A stretch of 64,000 bases of DNA from Caldithrix abyssi (lineage in GTDB: Bacteria; Calditrichota; Calditrichia; Calditrichales; Calditrichaceae): assembly GCA_011369465.1 (NCBI GenBank), contig DRQG01000023.1:1-64000 (forward strand), written 5' to 3'. Below are positions 607 through 44,372 of this stretch, piece after piece; the first letter of the stretch is position 1; the number at the start of each line of letters is the position of its first letter. The notes beneath the pieces are model-generated. The model was not told the DNA's origin and did not search any database. It was given only the letters and a program-made list of their open reading frames with translations. A program made the translations under genes and the position numbers.

Positions 607-2373
607 ATGTTTTCCTATATCTTTATGAAAATCCTTGAAAGACGGCCCCCGCGATATGATACGGGGATTAATATTCTTTCCGGCGGACATGCTGTAAAAA
701 TAAGAAAGCAGATTGTCCGGAATTTTGTGAAACCCGGTATGGATATACTTGATATCGGCTGTGGAACGGGTTCATTGCTTATCGATGCCGCGAAGGCCGG
801 CGCTGATGCCGCGGGTGTGGATATCTCAGAAGGTATGTTGGCGGTGGCCCGAAAACGGATCTCGGACAGCGGACTAAAAGACAGAATAAAGCTGTATAAT
901 GCCGGAGCCGTTGAGATTGAATCGCTCTTTCCTGAGAACAATTTTGATCTTATCGTATCTACTCTTGTTTTCAGCGAACTTTATGGCGAAGAAAGAGAAC
1001 TGGTTCTGAAGCAGATCAAAAAATTGTTAAAACCAGGCGGCATTTTTATTCTGGCCGGTGAAATTTCCCCCAAAAATCCTCTAAAACGAATCATCCATTT
1101 TTTGGTTCGTTTACCCTTAAGCGTTTTGACCTATCTTATAGCTCAAACCGGTACAAAACCATTAAAGGGAATTACGAATGAAATAAGCCGCGCCGGATTA
1201 AATATTACAAACGAAAATCGTTCTTTCCTGGATAGTTTTATCGTCATCACGGCTGTGAATCCGGCGGAAGAATGCTCTGAGCACGACGGATTATACAATA
1301 CGCTGAAAGCGGAGGATGACCGGTCGTTTATAAAAACCGTATGGGATTTCATTGGCCGTTGGTTCCCAAACCCTGTGGAACCGGGACTTCGGGCGATAGG
1401 TTTCCCGGATAGGAACGCGCCGGTTTTATTGACCTCTAACTTCCATCTTACGGTTAGACGAGTAGAAAAATCTTTAAAAAATGAAAATGCCTATCTGTTG
1501 GTCGCGCCGGCAAACGGGATTAATGTCTGGTGTGCCTCTTGCGGAGGCGAGTTGAATACGCATTCGGTCATAACCGCTATTAAAACGAGCCGGATCAATG
1601 AAAGAGTTAACCATCGCCGGATTATCCTGCCGCTGTTTTCAGCGCCCGGAATTGACCGCCAACTTCTTAAAAAAGAAACAGGACGAACCGGAATATTTGG
1701 CCCGGCTTATTCCAGAGATATTCCTTTGTTTATTAAAAACCATACATCGGTTTTTGAGTATAACAAAGCCGATTTTTTTCTCCGTTTCCGATTGGAAATG
1801 TTGCTATCGATGAATTTTATTGTCTGGCTAAGTATGGGCATACTCACACTACTCATTGATCCGAATTTGTTTTTCCCCCTCAGCGCTTATTTTTGGATAA
1901 CAGGATTTTTACTATACGCTGGGTTCCCGATAATACCGGGAAAAAGCGGCTGGTTAAAAGCCGTTGTCTTATCCGCAATAGAAATTATCACCATTGCCGC
2001 GGTTTCCGTCTTTGCACTGCACGTATCCGTATTCAGTTATTTGAATATGATGGTAATAGTGAGCGTAATTAATCTCTGGCTTGGTTTTGATCTGCGAGGT
2101 ATCGTTGCCGGATACCCCTCGGAGGCGGAATGGTTGATGCACAAGCTTGGTATGACCTCTTTTGGACATATCTTTTCAGCCGGGGTTTATAATCCCAACA
2201 AAATCCAGCAGAATATAGATCGTTGCAATAACTGCCGGTTTTGCCTCATGGTTTGCCCTAAAGGTGTATTCGGGATAGAAAATGGGAAAAAAATACGAAT
2301 TCTAAATAGAGGGGAATGTTTTGCCTGTAGCGCCTGTGTTACCCAATGTCCGGAAAAAGCCCTGTTTTTATGA
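607..2373 (+). CDS. Triple fusion: CpaM-like SAM methyltransferase + HgcA-like corrinoid domain + HgcB-like ferredoxin
   Basis: 588 residues, numbered from ATG 607; ATG 625 (M7, MKILERRPPRYD) is an equally good start and neither has a clear Shine-Dalgarno. Residues 7-220 are a class I SAM methyltransferase (ILDIGCGTG, 47-55) resembling corrinoid-protein-associated methyltransferases. Residues 270-400 match the HgcA/CFeSP corrinoid fold, with the cap-helix motif NVWCASCGG (306-314); Cys309 corresponds to the Co-ligating Cys of HgcA. Four membrane helices follow (about 405-515). The C-terminus is a 2[4Fe-4S] ferredoxin (C540/543/546/550 and C571/574/577/581), as in HgcB. In HgcAB the ferredoxin reduces the membrane-tethered corrinoid, which transfers a methyl group. 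The motif departs from the canonical N(V/I)WCA(A/G)GK, and the C-terminal vicinal cysteines of HgcB are absent, so mercury methylation should not be assumed. An HgcAB-like methyl-transfer role is inferred. Confidence 0.8.
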   Translation: MFSYIFMKILERRPPRYDTGINILSGGHAVKIRKQIVRNFVKPGMDILDIGCGTGSLLIDAAKAGADAAGVDISEGMLAVARKRISDSGLKDRIKLYNAGAVEIESLFPENNFDLIVSTLVFSELYGEERELVLKQIKKLLKPGGIFILAGEISPKNPLKRIIHFLVRLPLSVLTYLIAQTGTKPLKGITNEISRAGLNITNENRSFLDSFIVITAVNPAEECSEHDGLYNTLKAEDDRSFIKTVWDFIGRWFPNPVEPGLRAIGFPDRNAPVLLTSNFHLTVRRVEKSLKNENAYLLVAPANGINVWCASCGGELNTHSVITAIKTSRINERVNHRRIILPLFSAPGIDRQLLKKETGRTGIFGPAYSRDIPLFIKNHTSVFEYNKADFFLRFRLEMLLSMNFIVWLSMGILTLLIDPNLFFPLSAYFWITGFLLYAGFPIIPGKSGWLKAVVLSAIEIITIAAVSVFALHVSVFSYLNMMVIVSVINLWLGFDLRGIVAGYPSEAEWLMHKLGMTSFGHIFSAGVYNPNKIQQNIDRCNNCRFCLMVCPKGVFGIENGKKIRILNRGECFACSACVTQCPEKALFL

Positions 2374-2437: not shown

Positions 2438-2545
2438 AGAGTTGTATTTACAAGATAACGATCATTTTAATCGCAAGGCCGGACGCATATTCCGCGGCAC
2501 GGCTTATTGTTATGTATCCGGATAGTCAACGAGGTAAAGGAAAGA

Positions 2546-2911
2546 ATGGATAAAAAGAGCAAATTGATCAATATTCGCATTTCTCCACAGGAATACGAAA
2601 AAATCAAAGCGGCTGCAAGTCAGTTGGACATGAGCGTGTCGCAATATATCCGCTATATGGCTACGGTGCTCACCGATTTGCCGGTTGATTTCAGCGAAAT
2701 GAACGAATCGTTGAGCAAGCATCGTCTGGAGAACGACCTGCAGCGCATCACTCAAAATCTGGAACGGCGGCGCCAACAAATCGATATGTTACTGCGCAGC
2801 GTGAATTCTGCGGCGCTTAAACTGGAAAGCCAGTTTAAAAAATTCCGCATGGAAACCGCACAGGAATTACATAAGGATTTTGAACGTATCCATTTGCTGG
2901 TGGAAGAGTGA
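2546..2911 (+). CDS. Ribbon-helix-helix / MobC-like DNA-binding protein
   Basis: 121 residues from ATG 2546, chosen because a GAGGTAAAGGAAAG purine-rich ribosome site precedes it; an upstream ATG at 2507 has none. The N-terminus (LINIRISPQEYEKIKAAASQ, then a second helix MSVSQYIRYMA) fits a ribbon-helix-helix fold as in CopG/Arc repressors and MobC mobilisation accessory proteins. The rest is a predicted long coiled coil (residues about 55-115, rich in Glu, Arg, Gln), also typical of MobC-like proteins. No relaxase or plasmid gene is nearby, so mobilisation is not supported. It precedes a DNA methyltransferase by 62 bases and could regulate it or partner with it. Confidence 0.55.
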   Translation: MDKKSKLINIRISPQEYEKIKAAASQLDMSVSQYIRYMATVLTDLPVDFSEMNESLSKHRLENDLQRITQNLERRRQQIDMLLRSVNSAALKLESQFKKFRMETAQELHKDFERIHLLVEE

Positions 2912-2973
2912 CAGAGTAAATTGCGAATCTATTCCTGAAATCATAATTTAAAACGACCCGACCCGCTATTTCT

Positions 2974-3744
2974 ATGAACGCCATTTTCATGAAGTCCTCT
3001 GAAAAGATGGAAGAAATCCCCGATCAATCCATCCGGTTGATTATTACTTCGCCGCCCTATTTTAATATTAAAGATTATGGCGTAGAAAACCAGATCGGCA
3101 AATCCAGTCGTTCCTACGAACACTATATCGAAAGTATGCTGCCCGTATGGCGGGAATGCTTCCGGGTGCTCAAACCGAACGGCAAATTGTGCATCAACGC
3201 GCCGCTTATGCCGATGAAAAAGAAAGACTATTCCACCCATCACAACCGCGATATTCTAAACATTAATAACGATATCGAGTTTTCCATTTTAAAAAATACA
3301 TCCTTCTACCGCTACGGATTGGTTATCTGGGATAAAGGACACACCGATCAATTAATGATGGGTTCTTACCCTTATCCGCCGAATTTTTATTTTCTGAATA
3401 CCATTGAATTTATTAATATCTTTGTGAAAGACGGGCCGCCGGAGAAGTTTCCCAAACCGTTTAAAGAAACGTCGCGTTTAAGCAGGGAAGAATGGCGGGA
3501 ATACATTTCCACCATCTGGCGCTTTAAACCGGAAAAAAATCGTAAACACCCGGCGCCGTTTCCCGTGGAATTACCCAAACGGCTTATCAAATTGTTTTCC
3601 TTTAAAGACGATGTGATTCTTGATCCGTTTATGGGCTCGGGTACTACCGCTGTGGCCGCTTTGCTCACCGGCCGGCGCTATGCCGGTTACGAGATTAATG
3701 AAGAATACGTCCGCCTGGCGCAACAGCGGATTGAGGAACTGTAA
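2974..3744 (+). CDS. Site-specific DNA methyltransferase, beta-type N4/N6 (DNA_methylase family)
   Basis: 256 residues. The catalytic motif IV, TSPPY (residues 25-29), lies near the N-terminus and the SAM-binding motif I, DPFMGSGTT (from residue 217), near the C-terminus. This is the beta-class permutation; TSPPY is most common in N4-cytosine enzymes, though some N6-adenine enzymes share it. The C-terminal GYEINEEYVRLAQQRI is the usual motif X/II region. The central part (about 90-190) would hold the target-recognition segment. No restriction endonuclease is next to it, so it looks like an orphan methyltransferase, possibly regulatory or left from a restriction system. It follows the ribbon-helix-helix gene in the same direction. 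No strong ribosome site precedes ATG 2974. Confidence 0.85.
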   Translation: MNAIFMKSSEKMEEIPDQSIRLIITSPPYFNIKDYGVENQIGKSSRSYEHYIESMLPVWRECFRVLKPNGKLCINAPLMPMKKKDYSTHHNRDILNINNDIEFSILKNTSFYRYGLVIWDKGHTDQLMMGSYPYPPNFYFLNTIEFINIFVKDGPPEKFPKPFKETSRLSREEWREYISTIWRFKPEKNRKHPAPFPVELPKRLIKLFSFKDDVILDPFMGSGTTAVAALLTGRRYAGYEINEEYVRLAQQRIEEL

Positions 3745-21238: not shown

Positions 21239-21682
21239 TTGAGAGGACCGTATCGCAAACGTCGGGTACAGCGACCGCCGCAGTTCAGCAATTTTAAACC
21301 CAGCGGCATTCCGCGTAAATATCTGGATTCCATTGAACTGACGGTGGACGAGTTCGAAGCCATTCGTCTGGCCGATTATTTGCAAAAGGAACATGCGGAA
21401 GCTGCGGAAATGATGCAGATTTCCCGACCGACCTTTACACGGCTCATCCAACAGGCGCGCCGTAAACTGGCTACGGCGATAATCGAGGGTATGGAGCTGG
21501 TGATTATCGGCGGCAATATCGATTTTGAACATACATTGCACCGCTGCCATGACTGTGGGGAAGTCATTCAGTTGCCTGTGGACGTGTCAGAAGAGGACTG
21601 TCCCGGCTGCGGTTCGCAGAATGTGGAAGATTTAGCCCGGTCGTTTATTATGGGACGGCATCATAGAGGAGGGCGGAGATAG
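21239..21682 (+). CDS. DUF134 family helix-turn-helix regulator with zinc ribbon
   Basis: 147 residues from a TTG start placed by GGAGG four bases upstream; no alternative in-frame start exists before the conserved region. The N-terminal half matches DUF134: KRRVQRPPQF, FKPSGIPRKYLDSIELTVDEFEAIRLADY, then the helix-turn-helix EAAEMMQISRPTFTRLIQQARRKLATAIIEG and VIIGG. The C-terminus adds a zinc ribbon with two CxxC pairs (CHDCGE, CPGCGS), possibly a metal or redox sensor. DUF134 proteins are regarded as transcription regulators and often accompany MinD/NifX-like genes, as here. Two palindromes at its promoter suggest autoregulation (inference). The MinD gene follows four bases later. Confidence 0.88.
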   Translation: MRGPYRKRRVQRPPQFSNFKPSGIPRKYLDSIELTVDEFEAIRLADYLQKEHAEAAEMMQISRPTFTRLIQQARRKLATAIIEGMELVIIGGNIDFEHTLHRCHDCGEVIQLPVDVSEEDCPGCGSQNVEDLARSFIMGRHHRGGRR

Positions 21683-21685
21683 TTT

Positions 21686-22549
21686 ATGAAAATAGCCGTT
21701 GCCAGCGGGAAAGGAGGTACGGGAAAAACGACATTAGCCACCAATCTGGCGGCCTTTCTATCCGAAAGAAGGCGGGTCGTCCTGATCGATCTGGATGTGG
21801 AAGAACCGAATTCCGGCTTGTTTATTAAAGGGCAAATTCTCAAAAAGGAAGATAAATATAAAATGATACCCGAGTGGAGCGGGGAATGTAGTTTATGCGG
21901 CATCTGCCAGGATGTGTGCGAATTTCATGCCGTGTTGCGTCTGGGAACGCAGATTATGGTTTTCCCGGAATTATGCCATAGTTGCTATGCTTGTTCGGAG
22001 CTCTGCCCGGAGTCGGCGTTACCCATGGTTCCCAAAAAAATGGGTTCGATTAAACAAATACAAACAGATGGATTCGCTTTTGTTGAAAGCCGGTTGGATA
22101 TCGGAGAAGAACAGGCGGTTCCTCTTATCGCCCAAACCCATAAATATATTGAAGCGAATCTTAAAGATGAGGAAATCCGAATCTATGATTCACCGCCGGG
22201 GACTTCCTGTCCGGTAATCGAAGCGACCAAGACGGCGGATTTTGTTATCCTGGTCACCGAGCCGACACCTTTTGGTCTGCACGATTTATCGCTGGCGGTG
22301 GAAACTATGCGCGAGCTGAAAAAAGATTTTGGGGTGGTCATAAATCGTTTTGACCTGGGGAATGACGACGTACCGGATTATTGTGAGAAAGAAGGAATAC
22401 CTGTATTGGCCCGTATCCCCAATGACCGGCACATCGCGGAACTGTATTCACAGGGCAAACTTATTTATAAGCATGTACCACAGGTGGAAACGCAATTGCA
22501 AGCTATCGAACAATTTTTGGAAGAGAAGCTGAATGGAGGCCGCTCATGA
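21686..22549 (+). CDS. MinD/Mrp-type P-loop ATPase with inserted 2[4Fe-4S] ferredoxin domain (first of pair)
   Basis: 287 residues. The deviant Walker A SGKGGTGKTT (7-16) with signature Lys9 is that of MinD/ParA/Mrp ATPases. A ferredoxin domain is inserted after the first third, with C68/71/74/78 and C97/100/103/107. The switch region YDSPPGTSCPVIEATKTADFVILVTEPTPFGLHDLSLAVE is conserved. Homologues in anaerobes come as adjacent pairs, as Orp3/Orp4 beside the Mo-Cu orange protein in Desulfovibrio, and are thought to act in Fe-S or metal-cluster handling. GGAGG precedes the start, and the stop overlaps the next gene by ATGA, suggesting a heterodimer made in equal amounts (inference). Confidence 0.92.
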   Translation: MKIAVASGKGGTGKTTLATNLAAFLSERRRVVLIDLDVEEPNSGLFIKGQILKKEDKYKMIPEWSGECSLCGICQDVCEFHAVLRLGTQIMVFPELCHSCYACSELCPESALPMVPKKMGSIKQIQTDGFAFVESRLDIGEEQAVPLIAQTHKYIEANLKDEEIRIYDSPPGTSCPVIEATKTADFVILVTEPTPFGLHDLSLAVETMRELKKDFGVVINRFDLGNDDVPDYCEKEGIPVLARIPNDRHIAELYSQGKLIYKHVPQVETQLQAIEQFLEEKLNGGRS

Positions 22550-23439
22550 AAGAAATTGTCGTAATTTCCGGAAAGGGCGGCACCGGGAAAACGTCGATTA
22601 CCGCATCTTTTGCCTTGTTGGGGGGTAAGAATGTAGTGGTTGCCGATTGTGATGTGGATGCGGCGGATATGCATTTGCTGCTTCAGCCCGATTTTAAGCA
22701 GGCGGAAGATTTTTACAGCGGCCTTTTAGCGCATATCGATACGGATAACTGTACCAACTGTGCTGTTTGCGCTGATGTTTGTCGTTTTGACGCCATTCCG
22801 GTTATCGATGGCCAGCATACGATTAATGAAATAAGTTGTGAAGGGTGTAGTTACTGTGCGCGGGTTTGTCCGGAAAAAGCCATTCGGATGGAAGAGCGGA
22901 ATGTGGGACAGTGGTTTGTTTCTACCACCAAAATCGGCAGTACGCTGGTGCATGCGCGCCTGGGAATTGGTGCTGAAAATTCAGGAAAATTGGTGGCTAA
23001 AGTGAAAAACGAAGCCAAAGTCATTGCCGAAAAAAACAAAGCCGAGTTAGTTTTGGTGGATGGATCGCCCGGTGTGGGCTGTCCGGTGGTTTCATCACTG
23101 TCAGGAGCCAGCTATGTGGTTCTGGTCACCGAACCGACCGTTTCCGGACTGCACGATCTAAAGCGTGTTTATGAGCTGGTGCATAAATTCAATATCAGCG
23201 CCGGCTGCATTATTAATAAAGCCGATCTTAATCCTCAGATGACCGATGAAATTATGGACTTTATGGCCGGGGAAAATATAGATCATTTGGCTAATTTGCC
23301 TTACGATGAGACCTTTACAAAAGCCGTGACACAAGGAAAAACCATTGTTGAATTCGATGAGAACGGTTTGAGAAGAATTCTGGAAGATAGTTGGGAAAAA
23401 GTAAAAAAAGAATCGGATAAACAAAGAAGAGGAATTTAA
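22546..23439 (+). CDS. MinD/Mrp-type P-loop ATPase with inserted 2[4Fe-4S] ferredoxin domain (second of pair)
   Basis: 297 residues, a paralogue of the preceding gene. Deviant Walker A SGKGGTGKTS (8-17); Walker-B-like VVADCDVDAADMHLLL; inserted ferredoxin with CTNCAVCADVC and CEGCSYCARVC; and DGSPGVGCPVVSSLSGASYVVLVTEPTVSGLHDLKRV. Four-base overlap and a GGAGG ribosome site inside the upstream gene point to coupled translation. The probable role is ATP-dependent assembly or transfer of a metal-sulfur cluster, with the NifX-like proteins encoded next as clients (inference from family and context). Confidence 0.92.
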   Translation: MKEIVVISGKGGTGKTSITASFALLGGKNVVVADCDVDAADMHLLLQPDFKQAEDFYSGLLAHIDTDNCTNCAVCADVCRFDAIPVIDGQHTINEISCEGCSYCARVCPEKAIRMEERNVGQWFVSTTKIGSTLVHARLGIGAENSGKLVAKVKNEAKVIAEKNKAELVLVDGSPGVGCPVVSSLSGASYVVLVTEPTVSGLHDLKRVYELVHKFNISAGCIINKADLNPQMTDEIMDFMAGENIDHLANLPYDETFTKAVTQGKTIVEFDENGLRRILEDSWEKVKKESDKQRRGI

Positions 23440-23441
23440 AA

Positions 23442-23780
23442 ATGAAAATTGCTTTCACCACCAAAGGAACAACCTGGGATGCTGCGACGGACCCCCGTTT
23501 CGGGCGCACCGAATACATTCTGGTTTATGATACGGAAACAAATGAATTAATGTCTTATGACAATAGGGCTATCGCAAATGAGGCGCACGGCGCCGGACCG
23601 CAAACGGCTCAAAAACTTTTTGAAATGAATCCCGATATTCTGATAACCGGAAATGGCCCCGGGGGTAACGCCGCGGCTGTGCTGGAAAAGAGCGGTTTGA
23701 AAATTTACATCGGTGCGGGAGAGATGACGGTTAAGGATGCTTATGAGGCGTATAAAAACGGTAATTTAAAGGAATTCTAA
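23442..23780 (+). CDS. NifX/NifB-type (MTH1175-like) dinitrogenase iron-molybdenum cofactor domain protein
   Basis: 112 residues, a single Nitro_FeMo-Co domain (RNase H-like fold): MKIAFTTKGTTWDAATDPRFGRTEYILVYD, then GAGPQTAQKLFEMNPDILITGNGPGGNAAAVLEKSGLKIYIG. The domain binds Fe-Mo or other metal-sulfur cofactors in NifX, NafY and orange protein. The ordinary MTH1175 family is uncharacterised. The gene starts two bases after the MinD gene and its stop codon abuts the next start directly. The absence of nif genes argues against nitrogen fixation; handling of a Mo/Cu/Fe cluster is the more likely theme. Confidence 0.88.
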   Translation: MKIAFTTKGTTWDAATDPRFGRTEYILVYDTETNELMSYDNRAIANEAHGAGPQTAQKLFEMNPDILITGNGPGGNAAAVLEKSGLKIYIGAGEMTVKDAYEAYKNGNLKEF

Positions 23781-24176
23781 ATGGATAAGATAATAGCGGC
23801 ATTTGCTACCGTTGATGGTAAAACCTTTGTTAATCGACATTTCGGCGATGCCGAACAATATCTGATATACGAAATTACACCAATGGAAGCGCAACAATTA
23901 ACCATCATCAGAAACACTACGGAAGAAGAAAAAACACACGCCGATCCGAATAAGGCAAAAAGCATCGGCCAATTGATGAAAAAGAGGGGCGTACAGGTTT
24001 TAGTGTCTAAAAAATTTGGCGCTAACTTAAACCGTATGAAAAAACAGTATGTTTGTGTTTTGATAAGTAATGATTATATAGAAGACAGCTTAAAGACCAT
24101 ACAGCAAAATTTTGAGCGGATAACAAATGAATGGCAAAAAGGAAGCGAGAGGCATTTTTTAAATTTAAAGGGATGA
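23781..24176 (+). CDS. Second NifX-like (Nitro_FeMo-Co) domain protein
   Basis: 131 residues. The N-terminus AAFATVDGKTFVNRHFGDAEQYLIYEI fits the cofactor-binding domain (metal-site pattern HFGDAxxYxIY), and the middle QLMKKRGVQVLVSKKFGANLNRMKKQYVCVLIS follows the family fold, though more divergent than its neighbour. A C-terminal tail of about 25 residues is not conserved. The start codon immediately follows the previous stop. The TGA stop (24174-24176) lies at the very edge of a dispersed repeat, so the tail may have been altered by the insertion. Confidence 0.72.
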   Translation: MDKIIAAFATVDGKTFVNRHFGDAEQYLIYEITPMEAQQLTIIRNTTEEEKTHADPNKAKSIGQLMKKRGVQVLVSKKFGANLNRMKKQYVCVLISNDYIEDSLKTIQQNFERITNEWQKGSERHFLNLKG

Positions 24177-35008: not shown

Positions 35009-35497
35009 ATGTCGAAATTTATTTTCAGTTTTATTGTTTATTTTGCCTTTTGGGTCGCTTTTACTTCCACCCTCAGAACGGACGAAGTGCTTGCCGGAGC
35101 TATCGTTGCCTTACTCATGTCCTGGCTTACCGGACAACATTTCTCGGAAACCGGAATGAAAAACCTTTCGCCAAGAAAGCTATGGTACGCTTTCCTCTAC
35201 CTTTTCGTGTTTTTATGGGAAATGCTCAAGGCCAATGTGGATGTAGCCCGCCGGGTAATCATGCCTAAAATTCCCATTAATCCCGGTATTGTGGAAGTGC
35301 CCACTAAACTGCAAAGCAATATCGCCAAACTGGCTTTGGCCAATTCGATCACCTTAACGCCCGGAACGCTTACCGTGGATATCATCGATGACAAACTTTA
35401 TATCCATTGGATTGATGTACGGACCGAAGAACCTGAAGAAGCTTTCCGGCAGATTTCCGGCGTGTTCGAAAAGTATATTAAGGAGATTTTTGAATGA
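35009..35497 (+). CDS. MrpE-like subunit (MbsA/MbhA) of the Mrp-linked respiratory complex
   Basis: 162 residues. Two N-terminal membrane helices (FIFSFIVYFAFWVAFTS and VLAGAIVALLMSWLTG) precede a soluble domain with the MrpE signature LWYAFLYLFVFLWEMLKANVDVARRVIMPKIPINPGIVEVPTKLQSNIAKLALANSITLTPGTLTVDI. MrpE is part of the Na+/H+ antiporter module that couples redox work to ion transport. It is the first gene of the operon and overlaps the next by ATGA. Its position corresponds to mbxA/mbsA in the archaeal operon. Confidence 0.92.
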   Translation: MSKFIFSFIVYFAFWVAFTSTLRTDEVLAGAIVALLMSWLTGQHFSETGMKNLSPRKLWYAFLYLFVFLWEMLKANVDVARRVIMPKIPINPGIVEVPTKLQSNIAKLALANSITLTPGTLTVDIIDDKLYIHWIDVRTEEPEEAFRQISGVFEKYIKEIFE

Positions 35498-35742
35498 TAT
35501 ATGTTTTTTTCGGCATTATCATCGTTGCCATAGTACTGGCTATGATTCGTTTGATTCTGGGACCGACCACGCCGGACCGCGTAGTGGCTCTGGATACCTT
35601 GACAACCATTTCCACCGCTTTGCTGGTTCTTCTGGGTCTGTTTTTCGAACGCTTCATCTACATTGATGTGGCGCTGATTTATGCCGTACTGGGTTTTGTG
35701 GGCGTATTAACCGTTGCCCGCTATTTTGAAGGAGGCTTATAA
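35494..35742 (+). CDS. MrpF-like subunit (MbsB)
   Basis: 82 residues with three membrane helices. LILGPTTPDRVVALDTLTTI is the MrpF signature between helices 1 and 2. It is an antiporter-module subunit in the cytoplasmic membrane. It overlaps its neighbours by four bases and one base (TAATG), showing tight translational coupling with MrpE and MrpG. Confidence 0.92.
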   Translation: MIYVFFGIIIVAIVLAMIRLILGPTTPDRVVALDTLTTISTALLVLLGLFFERFIYIDVALIYAVLGFVGVLTVARYFEGGL

Positions 35743-36101
35743 TGGAAACCGTTCTGAATATTATCGGTTATACGCTGACTTCCGTCGGAGTGGTCTTTTT
35801 GTTTTTTGGCGCCCTCGGTATCCTGCGCATGCCGGATGTGTATAACCGCATGCAAGCCGGAACCAAGGCCACTACACTGGGCGCTTTCGGTACCATTTTG
35901 GGTGTCGGCTTTATCAATCCCGAATGGTTTTTCAAAACAGCCATCATTGCCGCTTTTATTCTGATTTCCAACCCCATCAGCAGTCACGCTCTGGCGCGCG
36001 GCAGCCATAAAATCGGTATTAAGCTCTGGCAGAAAAAGGATATCGATCATTATGCACGCGCCGAAGCTACTTTGCAGGAACAGGAAGGAGACGGGGAATG
36101 A
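35742..36101 (+). CDS. MrpG-like subunit (MbsC)
   Basis: 119 residues with three helices. LGILRMPDVYNRMQAGTKATTLGAFGTILGVG is the MrpG signature. The polar C-terminal tail (EATLQEQEGDGE) is cytoplasmic. The order E-F-G is that of the Mrp, Mbh and Mbx operons. It overlaps the next gene by ATGA. Confidence 0.92.
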   Translation: METVLNIIGYTLTSVGVVFLFFGALGILRMPDVYNRMQAGTKATTLGAFGTILGVGFINPEWFFKTAIIAAFILISNPISSHALARGSHKIGIKLWQKKDIDHYARAEATLQEQEGDGE

Positions 36102-36343
36102 TATTGACAATTCTGGAAATAATTCTTGTCGTTGTATTGATTGGTGCGGCCCTATTGGCTGTGTGGTACCGGGATCTGGTAGCTGCGGTTATCGCCAGTT
36201 CGGTGGTGAGCCTGATGCTTTCGATTATATTCTATATTTTGCAGGCACCCGATGTTGCCCTTACCGAAGCCGCAATCGGCGTGGGTTTGACCACCATTAT
36301 ATTTATGATTGCCATACGCAAAACCAAGAGGTTTGAAGAATGA
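36098..36343 (+). CDS. DUF4040 subunit, MrpA C-terminal-like (MbsD)
   Basis: 81 residues with three helices. DLVAAVIASSVVSLMLSIIFYILQAPDVALTEAAIGVGLTTIIFMIAIRK matches the DUF4040 segment, which in MrpA is a C-terminal part and in Mbh/Mbx is the separate subunit D. The conserved APDVALTEAAIG loop has the Asp/Glu pair expected in the ion path. Overlaps on both sides are four bases. Confidence 0.92.
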   Translation: MILTILEIILVVVLIGAALLAVWYRDLVAAVIASSVVSLMLSIIFYILQAPDVALTEAAIGVGLTTIIFMIAIRKTKRFEE

Positions 36344-37026
36344 GAAAAGTATTTGCCATGCTCTTTTTGGCCATAATCGGTTTTTATCTGTTTAACACGT
36401 TTGCGCTGATTCCTTTCGGTAAAAATAAAATGAACGCAGATGTAGCCGCTTCTTATTTAAATAGTGGCGTGCAAAAAACCGGAGCGGTAAACATCGTAAC
36501 TTCTATCGTAGTCAATTATCGCGGTTTCGATACTTTGGGTGAAGTAACTGTGTTATTTCTTGCCGCTACCGGTATGGGCGCATTGCTGTTCCGTAAAAAA
36601 CCGATGCAGCGTTCGCGGCAAAATGCCAGCGTTATCGTTAAAACCGGCGCGCGAATTCTTTTTCCGCTGATTATCATTTTGGGTGTTTATGTTTTTGTAC
36701 ACGGCCATCTGACGCCGGGCGGAGGCTTCCAGGGCGGCGCTATCATCGCTTCCGGTTTCCTGCTGATGTTTATGTCCTATCGGACATACAAGGTAAACCA
36801 TAAGGTGCTATCCCTGTTCGAAACCTTTGCCGGTACCTCCTTCGTGTTGCTGGGATTATTCGGCCTGATTTGGGGGACCAGCTTTCTGGCCAATATCCTG
36901 CCTTTCGGCGAAGCCAATACGCTGTTCAGCGCCGGGATTATCCCCTTAATTTACATTGCCGTAGGAATAAAAGTCGGTTCGGAACTGACGGCTGTGCTGG
37001 ATACGATGTTAAAGACCGTAAAATAA
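36340..37026 (+). CDS. Fused MbhE/MrpB-like subunit (MbsE/F)
   Basis: 228 residues that join two Mbh subunits. The first 80 residues resemble MbhE (TSIVVNYRGFDTLGEVTVLFLAATGMGALLF). From about residue 95 the MrpB domain follows (HGHLTPGGGFQGGAIIASGFLLMFMSY), ending with AGIIPLIYIAVGIKVGSELTAVL. Together about six helices. In the archaeal Mbx/Mbs operon E and F are likewise represented by one gene, whereas Mbh has two, so this supports the Mbs-type assignment (recalled gene order). Confidence 0.88.
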   Translation: MRKVFAMLFLAIIGFYLFNTFALIPFGKNKMNADVAASYLNSGVQKTGAVNIVTSIVVNYRGFDTLGEVTVLFLAATGMGALLFRKKPMQRSRQNASVIVKTGARILFPLIIILGVYVFVHGHLTPGGGFQGGAIIASGFLLMFMSYRTYKVNHKVLSLFETFAGTSFVLLGLFGLIWGTSFLANILPFGEANTLFSAGIIPLIYIAVGIKVGSELTAVLDTMLKTVK

Positions 37027-37037
37027 CAGGATAATAT

Positions 37038-37379
37038 ATGATTTACTACATCGGAGCTTTTAGTTTAATACTGATCGGCATCTACGCGGTGCTGGTAAAA
37101 CGCAACCTGATAAAAATTGTGATCGGTTTGTCTCTGGTTGACGCCGGTGTGCACCTGCTGCTCATCGCCATTGGCTATATCAAAGACAAGACGGCGCCGA
37201 TCTTTTCAAATCCTTCGCTTTCTGCAGGCGATATGGTGGACCCTGTGCCTCAGGCGCTGGTATTGACAGCAATAGTCATCGGTGTGGCGGTTACGGCCCT
37301 GGCGCTGACCATTGTCATCCGCCTGTATGACCATCACAAAACGCTCAACATTAACAAAATCAGAGAACTGAAGTGGTAA
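37038..37379 (+). CDS. MrpC/NuoK-like subunit (MbsG)
   Basis: 113 residues with three helices. The family signature DPVPQALVLTAIVIGVAVTALALTIVIRLY is present, and the Leu/Ile-rich helices before it match MrpC and NuoK. NuoK-type helices hold glutamates in the ion pathway; here the first half has few acidic residues, as in MrpC. It is directly followed by the large antiporter-like subunit, whose GTG at 37373 overlaps the stop. Confidence 0.92.
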   Translation: MIYYIGAFSLILIGIYAVLVKRNLIKIVIGLSLVDAGVHLLLIAIGYIKDKTAPIFSNPSLSAGDMVDPVPQALVLTAIVIGVAVTALALTIVIRLYDHHKTLNINKIRELKW

Positions 37380-37384
37380 CGACT

Positions 37385-38866
37385 ATGAATACATTGCCTT
37401 ATTTCGATCCGGCCCTGATGATCGCCTTGCCTTTGCTGGCGGCCTTTTTAATTCCGTTGCTCAAACGGGCTTCCGAACGGATTCCCAAATTTGTTCCGCT
37501 GCTCATACTGGGGTTTAATCTGTACGAGTCAATCGCTTTGCTGCCGCACAGCCTGCAGAAACCGATTGTGGTGATTATTGCCGCCTGGCAGCCGCCGTTG
37601 GGCATCAACCTCACCATAGGGCCCTTGGGAAATATTCTGGCGCTGATAATATCGCTGGTTGGTTTTGTGGTGGCCGTCTATAACATTAAATTTGTACTGG
37701 AAGAGCCCGGCGAAAAATACTATATGCTCTTTTTACTAATGATTACCGGCGCTACAGGAATGGTGCTTACCGGCGATCTGTTTAATCTTTTTGTCTTTCT
37801 CGAAATTACCAGCATATCGGCCTATGCGCTTACCGCTTTTATTCGTGACCGTAACGGCGCGGAAGCGGCCTTCAAATATCTGCTGATCGGCTCTATTTCT
37901 TCTACGATGATATTATTGGGCATTGCGCTTATTTACGCCAGCACCGGTACCCTGAATATGGCTGATATTGCTCAGAAAATCGGACAGGTGGATTCCCGTA
38001 TCACTCTGGCAGCGCTTATTTTGATGATTGTCGGCTTTGGTGTGGAATCCGAAATATTCCCTCTGAACGGTTGGGCGCCGGATGCCTATTCGCAGGCGCC
38101 GACGCCTGTGGGCGCGGTATTTGGCGGTATTGTCGTTAAAGCCGGGGTTTATGGGCTGGCGCGGGTCATTTATACCATTTTCAGTTTTCAGGGCGTCTTT
38201 CATTTTATTTTGATTATGGGCATCATCACCCTGCTTATGGCAGAGATGTCCGCCCTGAGGCAAAAACAGATTAAGCGCATGTTGGCTTTTTCTTCCATCG
38301 GCCAGATGGGGCTGGTACTTATTGCCTTGGGGTTGGCCACGCAGAATGCCGTTGCTGGCGGTTTGTTTCAGATGTTTAATCACGCTTTAATCAAACCGCT
38401 GCTCTTTCTTTCTGCCGGTTATTTGGTCTATTATTCGGGCAGTAAGGATATCGGGGATCTGGACGGCATGGGCAAAATAAAACCGGTAACCTCCTTCTTT
38501 TTTGCTTTCGGCGCTTTTGCCTTGATGGGCTTGCCGCCGCTCAACGGTTTCTGGAGCAAACTGATTATCATTTCGGAAACGGTGAAATCCGGTTATATCG
38601 TCTTGGCCGCACTGGCTTTAACCGGCAGTATCATCGAAGCGGTGTATTATTTACGGGTGGTCGGGCGCCTCTATTTTAAATCACCGGAAGAGCATGTCAA
38701 AACAAAATATGTGCACGCCTCGGCGGTGGTTGCCATGAGCATCCTGGCCGGTTTGGCGCTTTTTGCCGGCTTATTCCCTGACGTCATCTTGCATTATCTG
38801 CAGCCGGCGGCGCGCGAATTGATGGATAAAACGCAGTATATTCAAGCGGTGATTGCGATTAAGTAA
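37385..38866 (+). CDS. MrpD/NuoN-like antiporter subunit (MbsH)
   Basis: 493 residues from ATG 37385; GTG 37373 is also possible. About 14 helices of the proton-conducting antiporter family. TM5 has DLFNLFVFLEITSISAYALTAF with the essential Glu; TM7 AAFKYLLIGSISSTMILLGIALIYASTG carries the partner Lys; and the TM8-9 region has NGWAPDAYSQAPTPVGAVFGGIVVKAGVYGLAR with a further Lys. These are the ion-translocating residues of complex I subunits L/M/N and MrpD. Being one of two consecutive large antiporter subunits matches MbsH/MbsH'. Confidence 0.93.
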   Translation: MNTLPYFDPALMIALPLLAAFLIPLLKRASERIPKFVPLLILGFNLYESIALLPHSLQKPIVVIIAAWQPPLGINLTIGPLGNILALIISLVGFVVAVYNIKFVLEEPGEKYYMLFLLMITGATGMVLTGDLFNLFVFLEITSISAYALTAFIRDRNGAEAAFKYLLIGSISSTMILLGIALIYASTGTLNMADIAQKIGQVDSRITLAALILMIVGFGVESEIFPLNGWAPDAYSQAPTPVGAVFGGIVVKAGVYGLARVIYTIFSFQGVFHFILIMGIITLLMAEMSALRQKQIKRMLAFSSIGQMGLVLIALGLATQNAVAGGLFQMFNHALIKPLLFLSAGYLVYYSGSKDIGDLDGMGKIKPVTSFFFAFGAFALMGLPPLNGFWSKLIIISETVKSGYIVLAALALTGSIIEAVYYLRVVGRLYFKSPEEHVKTKYVHASAVVAMSILAGLALFAGLFPDVILHYLQPAARELMDKTQYIQAVIAIK

Positions 38867-38899
38867 GATAAAAGATTAAAACGATAGGTTGAAAATATT

Positions 38900-40759
38900 A
38901 TGAAACCTGTGGCTCTGGTATTATTGATTTTATTCGGCAGCTCAATACTGTCTTACACTCTGGGTAAGGTGCATTCCCTTATAGAGAACACCATCGCCCT
39001 CATTGCACTGCTGTGGGCGGGAACTGTTTTTGCGATGCAGTATGGCGTCAGCGATACCTTCTCTTTTTCGATGGCGGGATTTGATATTGTCTGGCGTATC
39101 AGCATACTGAGCTGGTTTTTCGGGATGATGGCGTTTATCATCGGGCTGGGCGTGGTAATCTATTCAATGGCCTTTATGAAAGACAAGGAACGCATCGGTT
39201 ACTACTGTTTTGCGCTGTGTATTACTATCGCCGGCACCATTGGCATTGTCGTCAGCGCTGACCTGATTTCCTTCTTTTTCTTCTGGGAAATTATGACCTG
39301 GTCGTCGTTCCTGATGGTAATTTACTATCGCTATGAAGCGCAGAAGGCCGGGATCAAGTATTTCGTCATGAGCTTAATCGGCGCCTATTCCATGCTGCTG
39401 GCCATTTTTCTGATTTATTCTCACACCCACTCAACGCGCTTTGATGTATTAACCGTGATGTGGGAAAATTTCAGCAGCGGTTTACAAATTGCTCTGCTCA
39501 GCCTGTTTTTTGTCGGATTTGGTGTGAAGGCAGCCATTATGCCTCTGCATACCTGGGCGCCGGATGCTTACCGGATTTCGCCTTCGCCGTTCACCGCCTT
39601 CTTTTCCGGAATCCTGTCCAAAATGGGTATTTTCGGATTGATCCTTCTGTTCTACGTGTTCAGCGCGGGGTCGCTGGCCGCGCATTTTGTAACGGTGAAC
39701 GGAGTTGCCCTGCCCGGTTATTTGCTGGCCTGGTTCGGCGCGCTTACGGCGTTGATTGCCACCATCATCGCTATTGTGCAGGATGACGCCAAACGTCTGC
39801 TGGCCTATTCATCGGTGGCGCAGTTGGGTTACATCGCTCTGGGTATCGGTTTATCCAGCTCTTTGGGACTGGCCGGAGCCATGTTTCATGCGGTCAATCA
39901 CACCATTTTCAAGGTGATGCTCTTTATGGCTGTCGGTGCGGTTATCTATCGCACGGGTACCTATAAATTCAGCGAACTGGGCGGATTGATTACCCGTATG
40001 CCTTATACGTTTTTCGTGGTTCTTCTGGGCATCATCACCCTGGCCGGCATTCCGCCGCTGTCGGGATTTGTAGGCAAATGGATGCTGTACGAAGCATTGC
40101 TGCAGCAAAAGATGGTTTTTCTGGCGATTGTAACCTTTGCCGCCAGTACGGCCGCGTTTCTTTATTGCTACCGTTTGATCTTTACCATTTTCCTCGGCCA
40201 ACGCCCGGAACGGTTCGATCATATTAAAGAAGTCCCCTGGTCGATGCGGGCGCCCATGCTGCTGCTTTCGTTGCTGACCATTTATCTGGGGATGTATCCT
40301 TATCATCTGATTGATTTAATCGGCAAAGTGGAAAGCACCTTGTTCGGTATCGTTCCGGTGGATATGTCTCAGTCGGTGCTTTTTTCCCGCATGGGTTCTG
40401 TAAATACGCTTACGGTGATGAATATTGTGGGCGTGGTTTTTGTGCTGGTGTTTGTCTTGTTTAATACCCTGTATAAGCGTTCGCGCAAGGTCGTTTTGAA
40501 GGATATTCACACCTCGGGCGAGGTACCGGGGCCGCATATCAATCTGCATTACGCGGTTGATTTTTACCAGCCCTTTTCGCGTGGTGTAAGCGCCATCTTA
40601 AAACGCAGCGCAGACCGGCTGTACGCGGCCATCGGAGAGAATCTGGAAAACCTGTTCGATCTGATGCGCTATATTTACACCGGAAACGGGCAGACCTATG
40701 CCATGTATGTGGTTATTTTTCTGGCCTTGTTGTTTGTGTTTAGTCAATGGTTGGTTTAA
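38900..40759 (+). CDS. NuoL/MrpD-like antiporter subunit with C-terminal extension (MbsH')
   Basis: 619 residues. A second antiporter-type subunit with about 14 helices: FFFFWEIMTWSSFLMVIYYRYEAQKAGIKYFVMSLIGAYSMLLAI (TM5 Glu, TM7 Lys), LHTWAPDAYRISPSPFTAFFSGILSKMGIFGL, and QDDAKRLLAYSSVAQLGYIALGIG. Beyond the core a hydrophilic segment (about 530-595) leads to a final helix (MYVVIFLALLFVFSQWL), reminiscent of the lateral-arm extension of NuoL. Duplicated H subunits distinguish Mbx/Mbs from the single-H Mbh hydrogenase. It is 33 bases after the first H gene. Confidence 0.92.
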   Translation: MKPVALVLLILFGSSILSYTLGKVHSLIENTIALIALLWAGTVFAMQYGVSDTFSFSMAGFDIVWRISILSWFFGMMAFIIGLGVVIYSMAFMKDKERIGYYCFALCITIAGTIGIVVSADLISFFFFWEIMTWSSFLMVIYYRYEAQKAGIKYFVMSLIGAYSMLLAIFLIYSHTHSTRFDVLTVMWENFSSGLQIALLSLFFVGFGVKAAIMPLHTWAPDAYRISPSPFTAFFSGILSKMGIFGLILLFYVFSAGSLAAHFVTVNGVALPGYLLAWFGALTALIATIIAIVQDDAKRLLAYSSVAQLGYIALGIGLSSSLGLAGAMFHAVNHTIFKVMLFMAVGAVIYRTGTYKFSELGGLITRMPYTFFVVLLGIITLAGIPPLSGFVGKWMLYEALLQQKMVFLAIVTFAASTAAFLYCYRLIFTIFLGQRPERFDHIKEVPWSMRAPMLLLSLLTIYLGMYPYHLIDLIGKVESTLFGIVPVDMSQSVLFSRMGSVNTLTVMNIVGVVFVLVFVLFNTLYKRSRKVVLKDIHTSGEVPGPHINLHYAVDFYQPFSRGVSAILKRSADRLYAAIGENLENLFDLMRYIYTGNGQTYAMYVVIFLALLFVFSQWLV

Positions 40760-40788
40760 TCGGTTATCATTAAAAAATAGTAAAGATT

Positions 40789-41691
40789 ATGCAAACAGAA
40801 CAAATTATATGGATTATCTTGATGCCCTTTGTCGGGGCGGCAGTCGGCCTTACCTATATGGGGATCGGCCGCAAAATTATTGCCCGGGTGCAGCACCGTT
40901 ACGGGCCGCCTATTTTTCAGAATATTGTGGACGTCCTTAAGCTGTATTCCAAAAAGACGGCCATTACTCACGGGGTTATGTTTCATCTGGCGCCCAATTT
41001 GGCCATCACGGGTACGATTTCCACCCTGATGTTTATTCCCATTCTTAGCGGCGACTATCCCATCCGGTTGTTTAGCTTTCAGGGGGATTTGCTGTTGATT
41101 ATGTATATCATGGTGTTCGGTTGTCTGGCCATGGCGCTGGGGGCGGGGCAATCGGGCAATCCCAATTCGGCTATCGGCGTTAGCCGCGGCTTAACGCAAA
41201 TGTTGGGTTACGAAATTCCCTTTGTCATCGCGTTGGTCATTCTGATGGTGCAAAATAATACCACGTCGCTGCTGGATATCATTGCCGCACAAAACACGGT
41301 GGCCAGGTGGAATATTTTTCATTCTCCCTTTGCCTTCATTGCCGCCATGTTCGCCTTTTTGGGTATGATGGGTAATAAGCCTTTTGATGTACCCATTGCA
41401 CCGGCGGAAATTGCCTCGGGGCCACCGTCTGAGTTCGGTGGTAAATATTTAGCACTGATGCAAACCAACCGCGGCATGTTTGCTTTTGTGAAACTGGTCT
41501 TGTACACGGATTTGTTTTTGGGCGGAGCGGCCACGTTTGTTGCTTTGCTGGTTAAAACCTTTGCCCTTTATCTGGTCCAATTGTTTGTCGGTATTGTGAA
41601 TCCGCGCTTCCGCACCGAGCAGTCAATGACCTTTTTCTGGAAATGGCCGTCGGTGATCGGGCTGATTGGGCTGGTGCTTGTTCTTTTGTAA
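40789..41691 (+). CDS. NuoH/MbhM-like membrane subunit (MbsM)
   Basis: 300 residues with about eight helices. Signatures: RVQHRYGPPIFQNIVDVLKLYSKK (the RxGP loop near the catalytic interface), and PFDVPIAPAEIASGPPSEFGGKYLALMQTNRGMFAFVKLVLYTDLFLGG (the acidic quinone/interface loop of NuoH). It links the peripheral redox arm to the antiporter module. It follows the H' subunit by 29 bases and is separated from the J subunit by a repeat-bearing gap. Confidence 0.93.
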   Translation: MQTEQIIWIILMPFVGAAVGLTYMGIGRKIIARVQHRYGPPIFQNIVDVLKLYSKKTAITHGVMFHLAPNLAITGTISTLMFIPILSGDYPIRLFSFQGDLLLIMYIMVFGCLAMALGAGQSGNPNSAIGVSRGLTQMLGYEIPFVIALVILMVQNNTTSLLDIIAAQNTVARWNIFHSPFAFIAAMFAFLGMMGNKPFDVPIAPAEIASGPPSEFGGKYLALMQTNRGMFAFVKLVLYTDLFLGGAATFVALLVKTFALYLVQLFVGIVNPRFRTEQSMTFFWKWPSVIGLIGLVLVLL

Positions 41692-42001
41692 GTACATAGT
41701 ACATAGTATTTAGTACTTAGTAGGAAGTTGAGAGGAATAAGGTAAAAAGGAACATCGTGGAGACTGAGCTCACCCTTCGACAGGACTTCGGCGTGAGCTC
41801 AGTCGAACGCTCAGGGAACGGAGGCTGAGCTTTGCCTGTCCCGACTTGTCGGGGTCGAAGCCGATAGTGAAGATAAATGGTAAAACGAATTGAACGGATT
41901 AAATAAAGAAATTATCGAATGATGGAGCAACAGACGAAGCGTAAAACAGCAATTCAACAATGTAATACTCCATCATTACATACAAAATTCAGGACAGAAC
42001 A
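41692..42001. repeat. Intergenic gap with dispersed repeat family C
   Basis: 310 bases inside the operon. It begins with short AGTACATAGTATTTAGTACT iterations, then at 41760-41870 carries words of a Cys-free, GC-richer repeat: GAGCTCACCCTTCGACAGG, GTGAGCTCAGTCGAACGCTC and CCCGACTTGTCGGGGTCGAA, with internal palindromes. An AGGA ribosome site precedes the J gene. No gene is visible. Confidence 0.65.
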
Positions 42002-42544
42002 ATGAAAGAAGATTGGGGAAGAGAAGCGGGAAATATTATCAGCAACTGGGCGCGAAAACATTCCCTGTGGGTGCTGGCCTACGGAACCGGCTGCGGCGCC
42101 ATTGAAATTCCGCCGACAATGACTTCCCGCTATGACGCCGAACGTTTCGGTATCAGCGGCATGGCCACGCCGCGCCAGGCTGATGTGCTGCTGATTACAG
42201 GGTACCTCTCCGTCAAAACGCTTAAACGGGTTATCCGTTCGTATGAGCAGATGCAGGCGCCCAAATATGTGATCGGTTTCGGTTCCTGCACCATCAATGG
42301 CGGTATGTATTGGGATTCGTACAATACCGTTAAACGATTGGATGATTATCTCCCGGTTGATGTATTCATCAACGGTTGTATGCCGCGTCCCGAAGCGGTA
42401 ATTGACGGATTCGTAAAATTGCAGGAACTCATCGCCAGCAAAAAAGCCAACGGTTGGATCCGCTATCAGGAAAATCTGGACTGGTACCGGGCCAATCAGA
42501 AAAAAGTAATCAAAAACTGGAATATGCCGGATTATAACTGGTAA
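42002..42544 (+). CDS. NuoB/MbhJ-like small Fe-S subunit with only three cysteines (MbsJ)
   Basis: 180 residues. The fold and motifs are of NuoB/MbhJ: YGTGCGAIEIPP (C31), VIGFGSCTINGGMYWDSYN (C96) and FINGCMPRPEAVIDGF (C126). These are the only cysteines in the protein. NuoB has a tandem Cys pair and Mbh-type hydrogenases a CxxC at the first position; here only one Cys is present, so the proximal [4Fe-4S] cluster would have an open coordination site. My recollection is that this is also described for P. furiosus MBS, where that cluster is the proposed site of sulfane-sulfur reduction. It may therefore be the catalytic subunit (inference). Confidence 0.9.
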   Translation: MKEDWGREAGNIISNWARKHSLWVLAYGTGCGAIEIPPTMTSRYDAERFGISGMATPRQADVLLITGYLSVKTLKRVIRSYEQMQAPKYVIGFGSCTINGGMYWDSYNTVKRLDDYLPVDVFINGCMPRPEAVIDGFVKLQELIASKKANGWIRYQENLDWYRANQKKVIKNWNMPDYNW

Positions 42545-42560
42545 AAAATGAACCGTAATT

Positions 42561-42578
42561 CCCCCTTAATAAAGGGGG
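42561..42578. repeat. Short palindrome CCCCCTTAATAAAGGGGG
   Basis: A 7-bp stem with a 4-base loop in the gap between J and K, followed by a second AAAGGGGG word. It is typical of a small dispersed intergenic repeat; no U-run follows, so a terminator inside this operon is unlikely. Confidence 0.5.
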
Positions 42579-42667
42579 ATAAAGGGGGTTGTTAAAACCA
42601 GTCTTAGGTTATCCTTTTGTGGGTTAAAAACAACATTTGTATTCATTAAGTCGAACAGAGAACAACT

Positions 42668-43237
42668 ATGAATCACGAAGAACACATCATAAACACCATT
42701 CACACCACCTTCAAATCAGCGGAGGCGGAAATCCAGCGTAAAGGCCGTTTGCTTATTCGCCTGCGCAGCGATCTTTTGCCGGCCTTTGTCAGCTATCTTA
42801 AAAACTATCTGGATTTTAATCATCTGGTGATGATAAGCTGTGTGGATTGGATGGAAGACAACCAGTTTGAGCTGGTCTATCATCTTTATTCGTATGCCCA
42901 AAAAGTGCATGCAATGGTCAAGGTGCGTTTAAACCGCAGCCAGCCGCAAGCGCAAACCATCCTGCCTTTCTGGGATCAGGCCGGTACATACGAGCGCGAA
43001 ATCCACGAAATGTACGGCGTGTATTTTGAAGGTCATCCCGATTTGAGCGAATTCATTTTGGAAGATTGGGATGACATACCGCCCATGCGCCGCGATTTCA
43101 AAACCCGTGAATTCGTAAATGAAAATTACGAATGGCGTAAGGGCAGGGAAGACGCGCAGGATGTACGCCGGACCATTTCCGAACGATATGATGAAAAATT
43201 ACCGCAGTTTAACAACGACGATAAAGCCAATGGATAA
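42668..43237 (+). CDS. NuoC/MbhK-like subunit (MbsK)
   Basis: 189 residues, the 30-kDa-subunit family. Signatures: LVMISCVDWMEDNQFELVYHLYSY, then TILPFWDQAGTYEREIHEMYGVYFEGHPDLSEFILEDWDDIPPMRRDFKTREF (NuoC motif ERExxDMxGxxFxGHPDLxRIL). It is a structural scaffold for the L subunit. The extended C-terminus overlaps the next gene's start by eight bases. Confidence 0.92.
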   Translation: MNHEEHIINTIHTTFKSAEAEIQRKGRLLIRLRSDLLPAFVSYLKNYLDFNHLVMISCVDWMEDNQFELVYHLYSYAQKVHAMVKVRLNRSQPQAQTILPFWDQAGTYEREIHEMYGVYFEGHPDLSEFILEDWDDIPPMRRDFKTREFVNENYEWRKGREDAQDVRRTISERYDEKLPQFNNDDKANG

Positions 43238-44351
43238 TACAATGACGCAAGTGGAAAAAGAAACCACCCTGTATTTGGGACCGCAGCATCCGGGCATTAC
43301 CGGAAACATGATGATCGAACTCAAAGTAACGGGTGATACGGTTCAACGGGCCAAAACCCATGTGGGCTACCTGCATCGCGGATTTGAGAAACTGATGGAA
43401 GAACGCTTGTGGATGCAGTGCTTCCCCATCGTCTGCCGTATCTGTGTGCCGGAACCTGACCCCAATGAAGAGAATCTGGCCCGGGCCATCGAGGAAATCG
43501 AAGGCCGGGAAGTTCCGGAACGGGCGCAGTACATCCGGGTGATGGTGCTGGAGCTCTCGCGCATCGCCAGTTATTTTTTGTGGATGGGCGGACAGGCCGG
43601 TTCCATGGGTCTGTACACCATGCCGCAATGGACCGTGGGTGACCGTGATTATATTCTGGACTTATTTGAAGAACTGACCGGCGGACGCGTGTATCACATG
43701 TACATCTGGGCCGGCGGTGTGCGCCGCGACCTGCCCGACGGTTTTGCCGGAAGAGTGCGCCGCGTGCTGGATTATCTGGAAGAACGTCTCACCGATTACG
43801 ACCGGCTCTTTTTCCAGAACGCTTTGTTCCTGAAGCGTTCGCAGGGCGTGGGCGTGATTGACAAAGACAAAGCCATGGAATGGGGCGTGGTCGGCCCGCC
43901 GTTGCGCGGCTGCGGTATTGCACACGACGTACGCAAAGATGAACCGTACGAAGTGTATGATAAACTGGATTTTGAAATCATTACCCACGAAGGCGGCGAT
44001 ATTTACGCCCGGGCGATGGTGCGCCGCAGGGAAATCGAGCAGTCCATTTCGATTATTCGTCAGGTGCTGGATAAGATGCCCGGCGGCCCGGTGCACAACC
44101 CCGGCCCCAATCCCCTAAAATGGAAACTGCCTGCGGGCGAAGCTTATGTACGCACGGAATCGGCCCGCGGAGAGTTTGGCTATTATGTAGTAAGCGACGG
44201 CAGTCTCAAACCGCGCCGCATTCACGTGCGCGGCCCGGCCTATGTGCATGGCGTAAGCCTGCTGGAAAAAATGCTGGTGGGCGCCAATATCGCCGATGTG
44301 AGCGTCATTATGAACAGTCTGGGCACCTGCCCGCCGGAAATTGAACGATAG
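43230..44351 (+). CDS. NuoD/MbhL-like large subunit with incomplete [NiFe] ligand set (MbsL)
   Basis: 373 residues from ATG 43230; ATG 43242 is possible, and the frame is open further 5' inside the K gene. The family fold is clear (LGPQHPGITGNMMIELKVTGDTV, HVGYLHRGFEKLMEER). [NiFe] hydrogenases need two CxxC motifs. Here the N-terminal one is kept as C69-R-I-C72, but without the surrounding RxCGxC...H consensus. At the C-terminus SLGTCPPEIER keeps Cys367 and has Glu370 where the last Cys would be. A normal Ni-Fe site is unlikely. This supports an Mbs/Mbx-type or other energy-converting hydrogenase-related function rather than H2 evolution. Confidence 0.9.
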   Translation: MDNTMTQVEKETTLYLGPQHPGITGNMMIELKVTGDTVQRAKTHVGYLHRGFEKLMEERLWMQCFPIVCRICVPEPDPNEENLARAIEEIEGREVPERAQYIRVMVLELSRIASYFLWMGGQAGSMGLYTMPQWTVGDRDYILDLFEELTGGRVYHMYIWAGGVRRDLPDGFAGRVRRVLDYLEERLTDYDRLFFQNALFLKRSQGVGVIDKDKAMEWGVVGPPLRGCGIAHDVRKDEPYEVYDKLDFEIITHEGGDIYARAMVRRREIEQSISIIRQVLDKMPGGPVHNPGPNPLKWKLPAGEAYVRTESARGEFGYYVVSDGSLKPRRIHVRGPAYVHGVSLLEKMLVGANIADVSVIMNSLGTCPPEIER

Positions 44352-44372
44352 CATTCAGGAAGAGGCAATACA

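Follow-up and report, generated by a model that had tools for sequence, protein, structure and literature searches.

Within the 64,000-nucleotide stretch of DNA analysed here (the window), a single reading frame encodes a protein that combines a SAM methyltransferase, a membrane-anchored B12 domain and the ferredoxin that presumably recharges it. The gene and its parts are as follows.

607-2373, + strand: complete fused gene, 588 amino acids, with an ATG start and no internal stop (open reading frame and translation)
607-1254, + strand: CpaM-type class I SAM methyltransferase domain, residues 1-216 (NF043040, Methyltransf_31, Foldseek)
1255-1356, + strand: linker, residues 217-250 (alignment of six fusions, codon-position divergence)
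1357-1746, + strand: HgcA/CFeSP-type corrinoid-binding domain, residues 251-380 (PF03599, NF043039, structural match)
1522-1533, + strand: NVWC cap motif, residues 306-309 (present in all relatives scanned but one)
1780-2082, + strand: four predicted membrane helices (AlphaFold2 secondary structure, hydropathy)
2188-2370, + strand: HgcB-like ferredoxin (Fer4_9 at residues 539-585, E 7e-08; tail survey)

The first-pass annotation, made from the letters alone, had proposed one chain with these three domain identities, and curated models, structure comparison and conservation all bear it out. Separate NCBIfam and Pfam searches recovered the CpaM, HgcA-like and HgcB-like parts, neither a frameshift nor an assembly join was found, and the central domain lies squarely in the HgcA/CFeSP family. 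Curated families cover residues 3-216 (CpaM) and 242-586 (HgcAB-like), and matches below cut-off place HgcA at residues 256-498 and HgcB at 533-586. The AlphaFold2 model of the whole chain has a mean pLDDT of 89.9 and a pTM of 0.86; Foldseek with this model returns SAM methyltransferases, yeast Coq5 at the top, and PHMMER of the HgcAB half alone returns CFeSP.

The methyltransferase domain scores 262.3 bits on NF043040 (CpaM, a hypothetical equivalog family) against a cut-off of 180, covering profile positions 1-214 of 216. Its SAM loop, LDIGCGTG from residue 48, is intact, and Pfam matches the N-terminal part with Methyltransf_31, 25 and 11 (Methyltransf_31, E 7e-21). Membership in CpaM also turns on association with a corrinoid protein, which here takes the form of fusion. 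The likeness thus extends from an end-to-end match at residues 3-216 to the adjoining corrinoid protein, although the usual CpaM is a separate gene of about 220 amino acids that overlaps the corrinoid gene by 4 bases. Transfer of methyl from SAM to the corrinoid is a putative activity of the family.

Downstream of the linker, CdhD (PF03599) matches residues 254-374 (E 4.8e-18), and NF043039 (HgcAB-like) scores 365.5 bits (cut-off 285) over profile positions 1-349 of 350, with the family's architecture of cap-cysteine corrinoid domain and ferredoxin on one chain. The NF043039 proteins share its NVWC motif, its membrane helices and a ferredoxin at the C-terminus, but the usual members stand alone at about 350-390 amino acids, whereas this one carries CpaM in frame ahead of residues 242-586. 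Taken by itself, the HgcAB half finds the published HgcAB model 9a0b as its first structural match and next the CFeSP large subunits 2ycl, 4c1n and 4djd, whose corrinoid domain can be overlaid on it across 130 residues at about 2 A. The CFeSP large subunit (CdhE/AcsC) nevertheless differs as a Wood-Ljungdahl protein with no cap cysteine, membrane helices or SAM methyltransferase. An assignment of the fused protein to that subunit was rejected, PF03599 having matched at profile positions 265-385 only and not over its full length. Cys309 of the NVWC motif is, by analogy, the putative lower ligand of cobalt; its equivalent is Cys93, the role of which has been described (PMC7305189, PMC11588087).

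Between the corrinoid domain and the ferredoxin, helices are predicted at residues 392-417, 419-438, 448-469 and 475-492. Their even number would leave ferredoxin, corrinoid domain and methyltransferase on one side of the membrane; with the five helices of HgcA (PMC7305189) they would not share a side, and four fits a ferredoxin fused at the C-terminus. The ferredoxin itself has two canonical CxxCxxCxxxC [4Fe-4S] motifs, CNNCRFCLMVCP and CFACSACVTQCP, and the chain ends 7 residues past the second.

The fusion is conserved. In a scan of one genome per species across bacteria and archaea, of which the best 80 loci were examined, at least five further genomes have this three-part frame as well, with identities of 52-70%, so that triple fusions number at least six. 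The five are assigned, by the phylum names of the binned genomes, to Spirochaetes (L041, 70%), Desulfobacteraceae (L042, 70%), Bacteroidetes (L043, 66%), Bacteroidales within Bacteroidetes (L044, 64%) and an Olavius-associated proteobacterium (L045, 52%). All six form one clade in the corrinoid and methyltransferase trees alike (SH-aLRT 99 in both), placed among two-gene systems in the corrinoid tree, and their nearest unfused relatives have CpaM and the HgcAB-like protein as two genes. This pattern fits a gene that was fused once and then passed between distant bacteria; no plasmid-borne copies were found. Among 40 genomes of the window organism's own phylum, which is small, only one other (G031) rises above the HgcAB-like cut-off, and its CpaM is a separate gene overlapping the HgcAB-like gene.

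The fusion goes back to an operon. CpaM followed by an HgcAB-like gene is the commonest arrangement among relatives (47 loci among those listed), and of 29 separate pairs with clean coordinates, 22 share exactly 4 bases between the CpaM stop and the HgcAB-like start, a sign of translational coupling. CpaM is fused to the corrinoid gene or lies immediately upstream of it at 78 of 80 loci with enough context, a proportion biased upward by a query that contained the methyltransferase. The two exceptions are L117, where the corrinoid match is incomplete, and L083, which has no recognisable CpaM within 6 kb. L083 also belongs, with L097, L099 and L105, to an HgcAB-like branch that has a cysteine-rich CSCPTC tail past the second cluster. 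What is novel is consequently the fusion of CpaM, its association with HgcAB-like proteins being a regular operon partnership. HgcA-HgcB fusions do exist, as the first-pass annotation had stated, but thermophiles are not their only hosts: no other architecture is as common among the relatives found, and they occur in many phyla.

Other fusions occur. Chloroflexota and Asgard archaea have the methyltransferase in frame with the corrinoid and membrane part (L048-L059, L075, L086, L101, L110 and L115), as in the triple fusion, but the ferredoxin is a separate gene just downstream and the proteins take another place in the tree. In the Chloroflexota loci L048, L049, L051, L052, L055, L057 and L059, that ferredoxin is a short gene immediately downstream. 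The fused clades lie apart in the trees and at least three changes are required, yet AU tests do not reject all fused sequences as one clade (p 0.117) or the triple-fusion clade together with Chloroflexota (p 0.197). Independence of the triple, Chloroflexota and Asgard fusions was therefore not accepted as proven, a single origin being allowed by these tests. Variation is seen elsewhere as well. Three loci (L012:620-2118, L114:6001-7499 and L119:6004-7502) have a Nitrospina-type CpaM and a 289-residue HgcA-like protein, with no ferredoxin domain and no neighbouring ferredoxin detected. In two related genomes (L054:5408-11737, L107:5420-11684), CpaM and the HgcAB-like gene directly follow a gene for a POR-family oxidoreductase subunit (shown for L054), and in L107 a radical SAM protein of about 1300 amino acids comes after them; the two additional proteins are a possible electron source and partner.

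NCBIfam already has curated, named models for each of the two component families, and in the literature fused HgcAB proteins have served as paralogues for rooting HgcA trees (PMC7438021, PMC7573106). In the open-access literature searched, neither the triple fusion nor a pairing of CpaM and HgcAB was found to be mentioned. What HgcA-type proteins do in nature, and where their methyl group comes from, are long-standing questions.

It was 2024 before SAM was identified as the donor. The conserved joining of a SAM methyltransferase and an HgcAB-like protein, together with the CpaM-HgcA fusions of Chloroflexota and Asgard archaea, ties a SAM enzyme physically to an HgcA-type protein. Further, the triple fusion offers one gene for expression and assay.

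On balance, and with moderate confidence, we favour a corrinoid methyltransferase of the CpaM/HgcAB-like type that is fed by SAM, anchored in the membrane and contained in one chain. The C-terminal ferredoxin would take low-potential electrons and bring bound cobalamin to Co(I), the N-terminal CpaM domain would take CH3+ from SAM and deliver it to that Co(I) on the HgcA-like domain next to it, and Cys309, as lower axial thiolate on methyl-Co(III), would favour departure of the methyl as a carbanion or radical. The methyl would then pass to an acceptor that is probably either soft or an electrophile, metal(loid)-like or associated with the membrane, and Co(III)/Co(II) would be reduced once more. 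We infer binding of the cofactor, the direction of methyl flow and the class of acceptor, and the proposed order from SAM to Co(I), Cys309 ligation, release and ferredoxin reduction is drawn by analogy with purified HgcAB. In that system, SAM supplies the methyl by way of a methyl-cobalamin whose cobalt has a cysteine thiolate on its lower side, and the HgcB clusters must provide electrons for cobalt to return to Co(I) (PMC11588087). That the dicluster ferredoxin is part of the fused chain hints that each turnover calls for reduction, as it would if the methyl left as a carbanion. The three consecutive methyl-transfer steps of the first-pass annotation become two, SAM to cobalt and cobalt to acceptor, each proposed here, with the ferredoxin as electron supply. 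More tentatively, and with more doubt than belief, an enzyme that methylates its own cobalamin and releases the group reductively as carbanion or radical would invert methyl polarity on one chain, and might be an example of the physiological reaction that mercury methylation by HgcAB descends from or split off from.

The genome around the window agrees with some of these expectations. It holds no other PF03599 protein, so that no route from a CFeSP donor was found, and a Wood-Ljungdahl role for the fused protein was rejected because the genome has no CFeSP. Seven B12-binding matches and a cobalamin adenosyltransferase are present and CobS was not found in the genome, content as expected of a user of salvaged B12 with no Wood-Ljungdahl corrinoid protein. 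Elsewhere in the window, two clusters recognised by eye could bear on low-potential electron supply, namely clustered MinD/Mrp-type ATPases with small NifX-like proteins (21239-24176) and a membrane-bound hydrogenase or complex I-like operon (35009-46154).

Across the neighbourhoods surveyed, no partner gene is conserved enough to give the physiological methyl acceptor a name. The commonest neighbours are TetR regulators (7/55) and PEMT (3/55), and neither a cobalamin riboswitch nor another RNA lies near the fused gene, the window giving a single tRNA match only. The Asgard CpaM-HgcA fusions (L096:4282-7659, L101:4787-8084, L110:5983-8029 and L115:6004-7949) offer more. In the Lokiarchaeota loci L096 and L101, the fusion directly follows an ACR3-like arsenite exporter gene, which is close to ACR3 arsenite exporters (270-272 bits versus 282.8); an ArsR-family regulator lies beside the fusion in L096, with a homologue in L101 too. 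The separate HgcB-like ferredoxins of L101, L110 and L115 have extra cysteines (GCGC and a CCG/CCN tail), unlike the triple fusion. For the Asgard branch it is thus sensible to think first of a metal(loid) acceptor, although the evidence does not carry it over to the triple-fusion clade.

Whether CpaM contacts cobalt at all deserves consideration, given that purified HgcAB needs no separate methyltransferase in order to use SAM (PMC11588087) and that CpaM consequently need not be the methylator of cobalt. The domain might instead be UbiE-like and methylate from SAM an organic, perhaps membrane-bound, substrate on which the corrinoid and ferredoxin parts would then react, the fusion serving for channelling. 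UbiE/MenG models do match it (E 4.7e-17), the quinone methyltransferase Coq5 is its closest structural neighbour by Foldseek, and the PEMT-type enzymes noted above, which make up 3 of 55 operon-like neighbours, are membrane methyltransferases. However, the domain scores 262 bits on CpaM and 62 on UbiE, a corrinoid protein stands alongside in nearly every locus, and no quinone or lipid pathway genes recur nearby, all of which makes this explanation unlikely.

It is less likely still that an MtaA-like methyltransferase of the URO-D family passes the corrinoid methyl to a thiol, so feeding a thiol methyl pool, or works in reverse. URO-D genes whose best solved match is a methylcobalamin:CoM methyltransferase (4ay7) do adjoin the fusions of L041 (upstream) and L045 (downstream, 59 bases), but these are two of six fusion loci; none was seen beside the fusion in L042-L044 or in the window. 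The second URO-D gene of the window's genome lies on another contig near a B12-binding protein, and SAM can methylate thiols with no help from cobalamin. That MtaA-like gene and its 226-residue B12-binding neighbour (G000 contig C44:27792-30210; L126, L123) resemble a separate corrinoid methyltransferase system.

In favour of an all-in-one HgcAB that methylates mercury, the chain has the NVWC motif and a dicluster ferredoxin besides its corrinoid and membrane domains, and purified HgcAB takes its methyl from SAM (PMC11588087), but this reading is highly improbable. The fused protein scores 132.4 bits on the HgcA model NF040863 (cut-off 275), on which the true HgcA of L013, L014 and L015 reach 392-447, and 44.9 bits on the HgcB model NF040864 (cut-off 99). 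It does have the cap-helix cysteine of HgcA (Cys309), but four predicted helices and not five. In the tail survey, the fused protein lacked both the equivalent of HgcB Cys73 and the C-terminal cysteine tail, whereas the genuine HgcB of L013, L015 and L120 have GVGC and tail cysteines. Mutation of Cys73 abolishes mercury methylation (PMC7305189), and Methanococcoides methylutens and Pyrococcus furiosus, which have fused HgcAB, gave no methylmercury under the conditions tested (PMC5893877). Mercury HgcA and HgcB are, further, encoded by separate genes, and no CpaM-like gene stood beside genuine HgcA at any of 17 loci scanned (15 distinct sites), with flanks of mostly 1-1.5 kb and a few shorter at contig ends. 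Membership in the mercury-methylating HgcA/HgcB was accordingly ruled out on score, cysteines and helix number, and the missing Cys73 and C-terminal cysteines make mercury an unlikely natural acceptor on sequence grounds. The fusion is also a warning against counting as mercury methylators those HgcA-like metagenome hits that have CpaM adjoining and no HgcB cysteines. Conservation of the fusion in several distantly related bacteria points to a self-contained methyl-transfer machine, the target of which is probably not mercury.

That assembly or a frameshift joined separate genes, as a single draft genome and a position close to the contig end might suggest, has a negligible chance of being correct, since the same fused frame and conserved junction recur in five more diverged genomes of one clade (L041-L045). 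The linker is variable at its start and conserved at its end, where IKxxWDxxGRWFPNPVEPGLR runs into the corrinoid domain; in the form IKSxWDxxGRWFPNPVEPGLR it is nearly invariant, and the alignment of the six fusions has no large gaps across the linker. Divergence at third codon positions exceeds that at first and second positions in every domain, the linker included in the analysis, as expected of a selected reading frame, and together with the shared frame and junction this argues that the fusion is neither chance nor artefact. Apart from GTG at codons 217 and 257, neither of them with an obvious ribosome site, the region of the junction has no alternative start in frame. The stretch GGAGGATGA at the junction was considered as the relic of an old start and rejected, as two indels would be needed and the other fusions do not have it. 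Directly downstream of the fusion, at 2507-3744, lie a NikA-like mobilization protein and an N4/N6 DNA methylase, possibly the remains of a mobile element that brought the fusion.
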